Shown here: positions 8,500 through 26,297 of the stretch, in pieces | Numbering within the stretch: position 1 is the first letter of the stretch | Layout: each line of letters begins with the position of its first letter | Origin: Halorhabdus sp. BNX81 | GTDB taxonomy: Archaea > Halobacteriota > Halobacteria > Halobacteriales > Haloarculaceae | Length of the DNA: 64,000 bases | Reading direction: 5' to 3' | Assembly (NCBI RefSeq): GCF_029229925.1 | Contig: NZ_CP107254.1 | Coordinates: 2,294,001 to 2,358,000, forward strand | The notes under the pieces: generated by a model | The model's input: the letters and a program-made list of their open reading frames with translations, nothing else | What the model was told of the DNA's origin: nothing | Databases searched by the model: none | Program-made: the position numbers and the translations under genes

Positions 8500-8700
8500 C
8501 CGCCGAGCGAAGCGAGGCGGTTCACTGCGACGGAGCGAAGCGACCGAGCAGGTGTTTTTGGTCCAGATTTTTGCGAGTCGAGCGGGACCGGAGGTCCCGC
8601 TGACCATGCGAACGGACGCTTCGCGTCCGTGAGCAGAAGGGGTTCCCGCAACGAGCCATCGGCTCGTGAGGAAACCCTCCGAAGTAAAAAGGTGGTATAG
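8500..8700. repeat. Hairpin-rich non-coding stretch beyond tRNA-Ile array
   Basis: The stretch has no convincing gene but several short perfect hairpins with 3-nt loops: AGCGGGACC/GGTCCCGCT (8581-8601) and ACGGACGC/GCGTCCGT (8612-8630, loop TTC). A nested stem with GGGTTCC…GGAAACCC also occurs (8640-8678). Runs of T (8554-8558, 8568-8572) and of A (8686-8690) flank the hairpin block. The hairpin style is the same as in the tRNA-Asn and tRNA-Arg arrays. Confidence 0.55.
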
Positions 8701-8857
8701 TGGGCCAAACCGGATTTGAACCGGAGCAAGACGTTCCGGGGACGCTCACTCCGTTCACGTCCCGGGCTGCGACTTGCAGGGTTCAAATCCGCTCGGATCA
8801 ACGAGTTCGCGCTCACAGGCTCGTCGCTACGCTCCTCGCATTGTTCGCGCAGAATAG
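8698..8857 (-). repeat. tRNA-Ile tail array: duplicated tRNA 3' end plus 81-nt element
   Basis: Bases 8698-8724 are an exact 27-nt copy of 8855-8881, the 3' end of the tRNA-Ile gene plus its flank. Between them lies an 81-nt element (8711-8791) with outer arms CGGATTTGAAC/GTTCAAATCCG, which reproduce the T-arm of this tRNA. Its core reads, on the tRNA strand, AAGTCGCAGCCCGGG … CCCCGGAACGTCTTGC. The core recurs next to tRNA-Asn and tRNA-Arg. The remaining bases 8792-8850 hold a direct repeat of GTTCGCGC. Confidence 0.75.
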
Positions 8858-18901: not shown

Positions 18902-19321
18902 GCCGCCAGGACTCGAACCGATGCAAGACGTTCCGGGTCACTCGCTGACGCTCGCTTCCCGGGCTGCGACTTCCGTGTTCGACCCTGGGGTACGCCGTCC
19001 TTGACGATAGCTATCGCTCGGCGATGAAACGCCTCGCAGAATCGTCAAGAGACGCCGTCCCGAGAACTGCGCAGCAGTTCTCGTGGGCCGGAAAATCGCT
19101 TCGCGATTTTACGCCGCCGTCAGAGCAAGCTCTGACGTGCCGTGAATTTCACAGAAATTCACGCCGCCGCCAGGACTCGAACCGATGCAAGACGGTCTTG
19201 CTCGTTCGCTGCGCTCACTGCGCGAGCTGCGACTTCCGTATTCGAGTCCTGGATGATCTCGTATTCACCGGCGACGATGCTCGGAGCAGACGCTCCTCGC
19301 GAGTTGTCGCCGGTAGAAGTA
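18902..19321 (-). repeat. tRNA-Asn tail array: hairpins, tRNA 3'-end copies and two 83-nt elements
   Basis: No gene is present in this 420-base stretch. Reading away from tRNA-Asn there is: a 9-bp-armed hairpin (19267-19314); an 83-nt element (19170-19252, arms CCAGGACTCGAA/TTCGAGTCCTGG); a copy of the tRNA 3' end (19161-19183, overlapping the element); hairpins 19141-19163, 19118-19137, 19092-19110, 19061-19083 and 19001-19048 with perfect 8-10-bp stems; and a second 83-nt element (18906-18988). Fragments ACGCCGYC, matching the tRNA acceptor end, sit between hairpins. Both elements contain the core seen at tRNA-Ile and tRNA-Arg. Confidence 0.8.
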
Positions 19322-24790: not shown

Positions 24791-24824
24791 TTCCGTCCGG
24801 CGGATGGGTCGGTGAATCGTAACC

Positions 24825-24834
24825 CCTTTATTTG
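24825..24834 (+). promoter_or_regulatory. TATA-like promoter of tRNA-Arg
   Basis: An AT-rich CCTTTATTTG centred about 27 bases before the first base of the tRNA is the expected archaeal TBP site. It indicates transcription starting at or near the mature 5' end. Confidence 0.6.
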
Positions 24835-24856
24835 CAACCGCGGTAGAGAGAGTCGA

Positions 24857-24929
24857 GTCCGGGTAGGGTAGTGGACTATCCTCTTGGCTTGCGGAGCCAG
24901 GGACCGGAGTTCAAATCTCCGTCCGGACG
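24857..24929 (+). tRNA. tRNA-Arg (GCG anticodon)
   Basis: The 73-nt cloverleaf begins GTCCGGGTAGGGTAG. The acceptor GTCCGGG pairs with TCCGGAC, the anticodon loop is TTGCGGA (GCG), the T-arm is CGGAG-TTCAAAT-CTCCG, and the discriminator is G. No intron is present and CCA is not encoded. The 3' flank carries an array of hairpins and partial copies of its own 3' end. Confidence 0.95.
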
Positions 24930-25245
24930 TTCACTCTTCGCGAGTGCTTCGCATTGCTCAGCACTCGCTCTGTGGTTCACGCCCGGACGTGCCCCACGCT
25001 CGCTTCGCTCGCGTGGGACTCCGTCCGGACGCTACATTTTCGCGGACCAAGATCGCGAGCGACTCCTATGTCGCTCGCCTCAGTCCGCGTTATGCGTCAA
25101 TGACGGAGATTTGAGCAGGGAAGTCACAGCCCGGGAAGCGAGCGTCGGGAGCGACCCGGAACGTCTTCACGAGTTCAAATCTCCGGTCGAACTCCGTTCG
25201 ACCGTGCTCAGCGCTCATTTCATTCGCGCTGAACTCCGTCCGGAC
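24930..25245 (+). repeat. tRNA-Arg tail array: hairpins, tRNA 3'-end copies and one 82-nt element
   Basis: Reading from the tRNA: hairpin GCGAGTGC/GCACTCGC (24940-24968); partial tRNA end CCGGACG (24983-24989); hairpin CCCACGC/GCGTGGG (24993-25017); 13-nt tRNA 3'-end copy CTCCGTCCGGACG (25019-25031); nested hairpins GCGGAC/GTCCGC and GCGAGCGAC/GTCGCTCGC (25042-25088); 82-nt element (25104-25185, arms CGGAGATTTGA/TCAAATCTCCG) with core GAAGTCACAGCCCGGG…CCCGGAACGTCTTC; hairpin GGTCGAA/TTCGACC (25185-25203); hairpin TCAGCGC/GCGCTGA (25208-25232); and another tRNA end copy CTCCGTCCGGAC (25234-25245). I see no gene in it. Confidence 0.8.
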
Positions 25246-25298
25246 ACGTTGGTTCCCGGGTTTATTTCTAAAACGGCGTGGAAGATCATGAACGCACA

Positions 25299-26297
25299 AT
25301 GGGTGAGCACTCAGCGTCGTCGGATTCGGACGGTGGAGACAGCCGGGTGAGAACCGCACGGGAGCGACCTCGGCGAGCAGTCGATCGGCGGACGGTCCTC
25401 GGGGCGATGGGGAGTGCAATCAGCGTGGGTGCGGCCGGCTGCAGCATGCTCGACGGGGGATCATCCCCGACTGACGCTACCGAGTCCGCGACGCCGACTG
25501 ACGGGAGTGATGCCCCGACGTCGCCCGAAGCCGCGAGTGCGGAACCGAATGGAGATTCCTGGGATCTGTCATGGAGCGACGAGTTCGACGGCGAGGAGAT
25601 CGACGAGGCGGTCTGGAGCTTCGAGACGGGGAACGGACACCCGGACGTGCCGGGCTGGGGCAACGAGGAGCCACAGTATTACCAGCGCGAGAACGCGTGG
25701 GTCGAGGACGACCATCTCGTCATCGAGGCCAGGGAGGAACACGTCGAAGACGACTACGGCGAGTACGACTACACGTCCAGCCGTTTGCACACACAGGGCA
25801 CTGTGGCAACGAAGTACGGCCGCGTCGACATCCGGGCACGGCTTCCACGCGGCCAGGGCATCTGGCCACGAATCTGGATGGTGGGGTCGGACGTTGCCTT
25901 CGCAGGCTGGCCCGATTGTGGCGAGATAGACATCCTGGAATTCCGCGGTGACGAACCCGAAACCGTTCGCGGGTTCGCCCAGGGTCCCGGCTACACGGGT
26001 GCCGACCGTCTCAGGGACAGCTACACCGTCGAGGAGGGGGCGTTAACCGACTCCACCCACGTGTTCTCGATCCGCTGGCAGTCCGACCGGATCGAGTGGT
26101 ACGTCGACGAAACCCAGTATCACACGGTGAGTCGCGAGACGGTCGAAGACGCCGGCCACGAGTGGGTCTTCGACACCCCCATGTACTTCGTCCTCGCCTT
26201 CGCCTGTGGCGGCGACCCGGCGAGCTATCCCGACGAGACCACACCGTTTCCACAGCGGCTGGAGGTCGATTACGTCCGCCACTACGAACGGGTGTGA
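25299..26297 (+). CDS. Secreted GH16 beta-glucanase (laminarinase-like) lipoprotein
   Basis: This 332-residue protein has a twin-arginine signal (DRRTVLGAMG) ending at a lipobox GAAGC, then a Ser/Thr/Pro linker and a GH16 domain from about residue 85. The catalytic motif is EIDILE: nucleophile Glu209, Asp211 and acid/base Glu214. Conserved aromatic residues (WPRIWMVG, RIEWYVDE) match beta-1,3-glucanases. It would hydrolyse beta-1,3(4)-glucans outside the cell while anchored to the membrane. ATG 25299 gives the shorter signal region; GTG 25278 is an alternative. It lies just past the tRNA-Arg tail array, with a TATA-like TTTATTTC at 25261. Confidence 0.9.
   Translation: MGEHSASSDSDGGDSRVRTARERPRRAVDRRTVLGAMGSAISVGAAGCSMLDGGSSPTDATESATPTDGSDAPTSPEAASAEPNGDSWDLSWSDEFDGEEIDEAVWSFETGNGHPDVPGWGNEEPQYYQRENAWVEDDHLVIEAREEHVEDDYGEYDYTSSRLHTQGTVATKYGRVDIRARLPRGQGIWPRIWMVGSDVAFAGWPDCGEIDILEFRGDEPETVRGFAQGPGYTGADRLRDSYTVEEGALTDSTHVFSIRWQSDRIEWYVDETQYHTVSRETVEDAGHEWVFDTPMYFVLAFACGGDPASYPDETTPFPQRLEVDYVRHYERV

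Follow-up and report, generated by a model that had tools for sequence, protein, structure and literature searches.

Hairpin stacks with spare tRNA tails at haloarchaeal tRNA genes appear to be an undescribed kind of miniature mobile DNA

Why should the end of a tRNA gene be repeated, more than once, in the DNA behind it? The question is raised by the tRNA-Arg(GCG) gene at 24857-24929 (+) of a 64,000-nucleotide stretch of the Halorhabdus sp. BNX81 genome, here called the window. The gene is recognised by ARAGORN and by Rfam (tRNA, E = 3.9e-9), and its positions ~52-73 are the recurring segment. The initial annotation had noticed that the last 13 nt of this tRNA reappear downstream, and CTCCGTCCGGACG is indeed found at 24917-24929, within the gene, and at 25019-25031. 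A further copy that it placed at 25234-25245 comprises the first 12 nt of CTCCGTCCGGACG; the next base is A, not G. The shorter tail pieces it reported near 24983 and 25192 are present, as are hairpins between the tail copies. Two elements were overlooked: an antisense copy of the T-arm, GACGGAGATTTGA, at 25102-25114, and a second sense copy, GAGTTCAAATCTCCG, at 25171-25185.

The array consists of units on the same strand as the tRNA. The one next to the gene (24930-25031, +) is of an acceptor type: a hairpin, an antisense-like piece of the acceptor end (24980-24989), another hairpin and the sense tail copy at 25019-25031; it was delimited by its repeats, and the module tracks the host's acceptor variant in other genera. 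Then follows a T-arm unit. Its hairpin 1 and spacer (25032-25101, +) were assigned from the sequence and by comparison with other units; its antisense T-arm copy (25102-25116, +) forms inverted repeat I2 with the tRNA (13/13 nt over 25102-25114). The conserved core (25104-25185, +), which comprises the antisense arm, a body with AGTCACAG...AACGTCT and the sense arm, is matched by our covariance model R1 with E = 1.5e-12 (G000:C1:2319104-2319185, G000 being the Halorhabdus genome). The sense tail copy begins at 25171-25185, is broken by an insert of two hairpins and resumes at 25234-25245 (25171-25245, +; repeats D1, D2 and D4).

The insert that splits this copy lies at 25186-25233. Split sense tail copies are also seen in the same genome at Val-tac (L027), Gln-ttg (L022), Ala-cgc (L011) and Asp (L020), and further at Gly-tcc (L009), Pro-ggg (L041) and Glu-ctc (L032). 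The splits are often near the 3' side of the T-stem, and the insert is about two hairpins long with a few tRNA bases repeated; this looks like a second type of insertion, which would target the copies themselves. The neighbourhood of the array has one GH16 and one SHMT gene; directly behind the array comes the former, a glycosyl hydrolase family 16 gene at 25278-26297 (+; PF00722, E = 2.6e-21).

Units of this kind also stand behind the two remaining tRNAs of the window, Ile and Asn. The unit behind tRNA-Ile (8709-8793, -) is the best R1 match of the genome (E = 6.2e-21). Behind tRNA-Asn lies a 160-nt unit (19161-19320, -; R1 match at 19170-19252), which is missing at the orthologous site of a congener (G050), with flanks identical at 44/44 bases; a second unit of this array is found at 18906-18988 (-; R1 E = 5.2e-9). 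The initial annotation had called the Arg and Asn sequences unrelated, which was wrong: the core is common to both and to tRNA-Ile, and the Arg and Asn arrays are therefore related beyond their likeness of plan. Arrays at different tRNAs share a conserved unit, and it is mainly the arms that differ, each matching its host tRNA. A dispersed repeat with GCAAAAANCTGGACCAAAAAC occurs at 8554-8574 (-) of the window and at 14 other places in the genome. By eye, it closes several tRNA arrays (Ile, Arg-tct, Pro-tgg, Pro-ggg); its pattern gives 15 genome matches at up to 3 mismatches versus 1 for the reversed pattern, and many of them are away from tRNAs.

The phenomenon extends over the whole genome, a single contig of 2.83 Mb in which Rfam recognises 41 tRNA genes. 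We counted as an own-tail copy any exact match of at least 12 nt to a tRNA's own last 24 nt, not more than 500 nt downstream. Such copies follow 27 of the 41 tRNAs, and 19 of 42 in the congener; the same test upstream yielded 0/41 and 0/42, respectively. The tails of other tRNAs matched in the same flanks in 9.6% of 1568 tests (8.0% of 1644 in the congener), and order-1 Markov sequences gave a tail match in 0.1% of 2050 (0 of 2100). Among control tRNAs, which were part of each genome's set, 1 of 30 had an own-tail copy (G128 0/8, G014 0/7, G167 0/7, G173 1/8); the single match may be explained by neighbouring tRNA genes at some loci of G173. The comparison proposed in the initial annotation was thus run in reduced form, on two genomes with all tRNAs found and on parts of four control genomes, and the excess was confirmed. 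A tRNA-Pro(CGG) gene (L066, G000:C1:504656-504731) is absent from the Rfam list of 41 and was recovered by ARAGORN, and its own unit reflects the gene's unusual T-arm, GATTCGAATTCGCG.

The units have a common plan. From the tRNA outward, hairpin 1 is followed by an antisense copy of tRNA positions ~52-63, a hairpin body and a sense copy of ~52-73. The sense copy ends at the discriminator base 73, where the next unit starts. Hairpin 1 often has a short top on a stem that contains two G-A mismatches. In a common type of body, AGTCGCAG...AACGTCT flanks a variable hairpin; other body types occur. A second kind of unit uses the acceptor end only, and behind tRNA-Arg it tracks the host's acceptor variant across other genera. 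With about 115-171 nt, the units are too short for any gene. Rfam, scanned with 24800-25400, returned the tRNA itself as the only significant match; the unit stayed below the curated thresholds.

In genomes drawn from the class, R1 finds the unit in 141 of 145, representing 56 of 58 genera, with 2 to at least 32 matches per matching genome. Four class genomes (G014, G054, G060, G128) gave no R1 match. Two of them, G014 and G060, belong to genera in which other members bear units, and genomes of this kind should help in the search for the enzyme. When 294 genomes were drawn from the phylum, 53 matched, and the tally by order covers these matching genomes: 52 belong to the same order, and one weak match (G382, E = 0.0018) lies outside. 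A named example is Halobacterium sp. CBA1126, with a unit behind tRNA-Arg(CCG); from this and from the sequence itself the class is taken to be Halobacteria. The Halorhabdus genome itself has 43 matches. All 30 that were retrieved lie behind a tRNA on the same strand, with 69-375 nt between the tRNA and the middle of the match; five matches at E 0.2-0.74 are away from listed tRNAs. The best matches in other genomes lie behind a same-strand tRNA in 23 of 29 cases. The others have their peculiarities: at a contig edge (L077) the unit is, by coordinates, 46 nt behind tRNA-Ile; two units (L075, L091) follow intron-containing tRNA calls and one (L098) a tRNA broken by N; at L089 and L100 no intact tRNA stands in front, and at L100 a tRNA-Val tail fragment precedes the unit.

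How do the units get there? Of 64 viral contigs picked by a pattern scan as possible carriers, none was confirmed by R1. A blastn search of 24857-25250 against plasmids gave no match. Units without a gene, and without a match in these viral and plasmid searches, count against a mobile cassette. More can be learned from the congener. We inspected 19 of 41 pairs of orthologous tRNA loci, chosen for apparent difference, and nine of these are clean: a block directly after the tRNA ends in a tail copy, and the shorter locus continues without it, agreeing with the longer one at 43 or 44 of 44 bases around the junction. Seven blocks are single units (Asn 160 nt, Arg-gcg 134, Thr-ggt 157, Gly-gcc 171, Glu-ctc 115, Arg-ccg 130, Pro-tgg 127) and two are double (Met 245 nt, Ser-tga 233 nt). 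Pro-ggg, Lys-ctt and Gly-tcc show a similar pattern with flanks of 36-41 of 44; the remaining seven pairs are not clean. Every clean difference adjoins the tRNA, between it and the older array, and either congener may be the longer one. The repeated tail segment is mostly 20-24 nt long, lengths of 0-1 in some pairs being an artefact of ARAGORN ending one base off.

Where the strands might be exchanged is suggested by three clues. At Thr-ggt and Gly-gcc, tRNA and distal copy are in agreement to the right of the T-loop and differ immediately to its left. In a survey of 136 tRNAs, 70 copies were exact over 54-73; where a copy is perfect bar one inserted base, the insertion falls at positions 56-59 in 4 of 4 cases, only four events in all. 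The third clue comes from another genome (G046). There, tRNA-Val(CAC) lacks the array beside it; ~50.6 kb downstream, 23 nt of its tail are repeated exactly and an orphan unit is found, and the gene beside this distal copy encodes a phage-integrase domain (PF00589, E = 1.1e-9). An integrase island of ~51 kb has thus used the same site and displaced the unit. Taken together, the three clues speak for the T-loop as the place and for site-specific recombination as the process, and it is established that tRNA ends suit tyrosine recombinases (PMC8371274). Behind tRNA-Val(GAC) of the Halorhabdus genome, a second tail copy such as an island would leave was looked for, and none was found. The orphan unit (L100 / L266, G046:C1 near 974800) is followed by several copies of a ~26-nt direct repeat, CCCAACCTCAATCAGCCTGTAAGT.

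The explanation we favour, with slightly better than even confidence, is that the arrays are stacks of gene-less, tRNA-specific mobile cassettes that were integrated one after another at the tRNA end; a recombinase that is centred on the T-loop and acts on a folded strand is the probable agent. The cassette would consist of hairpin 1, the antisense T-arm, the hairpin body, and the T-arm with the acceptor 3' strand up to host base 73. A new one would enter precisely where the tRNA gene ends on its 3' side and leave the tRNA intact, while the older tail copy and cassettes are displaced outward, so that the array would grow from the tRNA side. The tail could be brought by the cassette or duplicated from the target. 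A putative tyrosine recombinase would act in trans and recognise the folded tRNA-sense strand in the way of an integron integrase, with strand exchange in the T-loop, and each site would have seen gain rather than loss. That a shared process works on tRNA 3' ends, as the initial annotation had supposed, is supported by the genome-wide tail counts, the class-wide distribution and the precise insertion differences between congeners.

The fit between unit and host was measured at 55 of 59 loci (L042-L100) that were found by the model and not selected by their own tRNA; L077, L089, L098 and L100, for which the expected place yielded no tRNA assignment, were left aside. The host's acceptor part (11 nt) is found after the middle of the match with 0.71 mean mismatches versus 3.59 for permuted tRNAs, the host tail of 22 nt with 2.09 versus 7.05. 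For the antisense arm the mismatches to the own tRNA sum up to 126, versus a mean of 206 and a minimum of 181 in 2000 permutations. For single units the own tRNA was best or tied in 23 of 55; the arm of one unit is often indecisive because T-arms are very alike. The similarity of bodies at different tRNAs reaches 95%, whereas the arms follow the host; the set is biased, units having been chosen for at most 2 mismatches to their own arm, and one of its 33 Halorhabdus units (at tRNA-His) looks like a chance match. The arm is followed by CAG in 16 of 17 tRNA-Arg(GCG) units across genera (from 16 of 30 loci), versus 2 of 62 units at other tRNAs in the two congeners. Arms and their neighbours thus form tRNA-specific lineages, between which hairpins seem to be exchanged. 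Recopying of the arms from the target at each insertion, or tRNA-specific lineages with exchanged hairpins, would explain the data equally well.

These data bear on the idea that a Cas1-like integrase, an IS200/IS605-type transposase or a reverse transcriptase inserts a hairpin element and thereby duplicates ~22 nt of the tail. Such an enzyme would account for growth beside the tRNA and for a repeated segment that is mostly 20-24 nt long, strand-specific folded hairpins would suit it, and hairpins common to several tRNAs carry arms that fit the host in 18 of 20 comparisons, with 2 ties, in the selection-biased set. The neighbours of the arms, however, are tRNA-specific across genera, which suits arms that are carried in, and to the left of the T-loop a copy may depart from the tRNA sequence. 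We consider target duplication rather unlikely. The mobile cassettes have their own difficulty here: since the arms at tRNA-Arg(GCG) are, across genera, a lineage specific to this tRNA, movement between tRNAs requires a change of arm or an exchange of hairpins, which the cassette model does not explain in detail.

Could the units instead be functional structured RNAs, cotranscribed with the tRNA, that work as a regulator, a guide or a processed trailer and whose antisense arm pairs with the tRNA or the downstream copy? They certainly have structure. In 16 aligned units, arm and inner stem are paired in 92.7% of cells versus 81.4% in shuffles, and 31 cells are changed on both sides versus 10.6 in shuffled alignments; the structure was set by hand from the same 16 sequences, and misframed units were excluded. 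The GNA-loop motif of the bodies is found 58/65 times on the tRNA-sense strand and 2/65 times on the opposite one, with a shuffled mean of 15.9, an asymmetry which suggests that one strand, DNA or RNA, is read in folded form, and which speaks for folded mobile cassettes as well. RNase Z would cut tRNA precursors at base 73, precisely where the tail copies stop, and the presence of units in almost all class genomes would also befit a function. A functional RNA is, however, difficult to reconcile with 14 of 41 Halorhabdus tRNAs that lack tail copies and with four class genomes that lack a match. Moreover, whole units differ between congeners at many loci, and the distal tail copies are frequently degraded or split. 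Such a function is unlikely.

Unequal crossing-over between tail copies, which offer ~22 nt of homology, could also duplicate units locally in tandem, and gene conversion between arrays could follow. Ten inserts were compared with the rest of their own array and with loci up to L170. Four of them (Thr-ggt, Ser-tga, Asn, Gly-gcc) also resemble their own array, well above shuffled sequence, which counts against a purely foreign origin. The Pro-tgg insert, in contrast, is no closer to its own array than shuffled sequence is, but close to a Met unit (94% over 68 nt) and to a Leu-tag unit (93% over 58 nt); that of Lys-ctt is no closer to its own array than the best shuffle and matches units elsewhere. 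The Arg-ccg insert matches a Lys-ttt unit (94% over 54 nt), the Gly-gcc insert an Asp unit (80% over 123 nt), and the Arg-gcg insert a unit that another genus has behind its own tRNA-Arg(GCG) (85% over 112 nt). As clean differences, in addition, always adjoin the tRNA, tandem duplication is highly doubtful. Precise ends and foreign relatedness favour gain over loss, which a comparison of two congeners cannot separate at a given locus. Chance matches, finally, have a negligible probability: palindromes are common in these GC-rich flanks, yet the upstream, Markov, other-tail and control-genome tests and the R1 matches throughout the class contradict this idea.

From serially added cassettes one may go a step further, to a class-wide haloarchaeal system in which tRNA genes would serve as capture sites, gene-less cassettes that fold as single strands would bring a spare tail and stack serially at most kinds of tRNA, and a dedicated enzyme would act in trans. 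This extension is tentative, and we give it somewhat less than even credence. If true, haloarchaeal tRNA loci would be growing records of insertion in nearly every genome of the class, and an insertion enzyme hitherto unknown would be exposed. Nature would be seen to have a way of inserting DNA next to tRNA genes without a scar, and the long-debated preference of mobile elements for tRNA ends could be studied in a clear setting. The units would also provide fine-scale strain markers, since those adjacent to the tRNA differ between congeners. In the open-access literature we found nothing on tRNA-tail cassette arrays, most subscription papers lying outside the search.

Among known systems, integron cassettes are added serially at a fixed site and have an imperfect hairpin with inverted outer arms, a variable tip and a strand-specific structure. 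The units, with their putative serial addition, inverted outer arms, variable tip and strand specificity, have a fold that may be analogous. Unlike integron cassettes, the units have no open reading frame, their fixed site is a tRNA gene, and there are many sites per genome. CRISPR arrays grow beside a leader with a repeated segment, and casposons can target tRNA ends. The units would share growth beside a fixed end with a repeated segment and, with casposons, the targeting of tRNA ends; the parts between the tail copies, however, have a structured core in common and are not unrelated spacers, which sets them apart from CRISPR arrays.

Integrative elements that target tRNAs by tyrosine recombinases insert in the 3' part of the gene, restore an intact tRNA and leave a tail copy at their far end, as the relevant sections of PMC8371274 and, for Haloquadratum GI3, of PMC3119063 describe. 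In the nine clean pairs the units are likewise bounded by the intact tRNA on one side and by a repeat of its tail on the other, and the G046 island uses the same segment as the units. The difference is one of size and content: these elements, in the same sections (PMC8371274, PMC3119063), measure kilobases and bear genes, whereas the units have 115-171 nt and none. The units further differ by the antisense T-arm, the conserved hairpins and the many copies stacked behind many tRNAs of a genome.

Of the small elements in the literature, SMR-A and PATE of Haloquadratum come closest, to judge from the passages of PMC3119063 devoted to them. According to these, SMR-A and PATE are gene-less mobile repeats of ~110 bp, tied to palindromes and of unknown mobiliser, and SMR-A target the palindromes of IS605-type elements without target duplication (PMC3119063). 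Our units share with them that they are small, gene-less, haloarchaeal and linked to palindromes. Unlike SMR-A, as far as the latter are characterised in those passages (PMC3119063), they sit at tRNA ends, and each has a tail copy of 20-24 nt.
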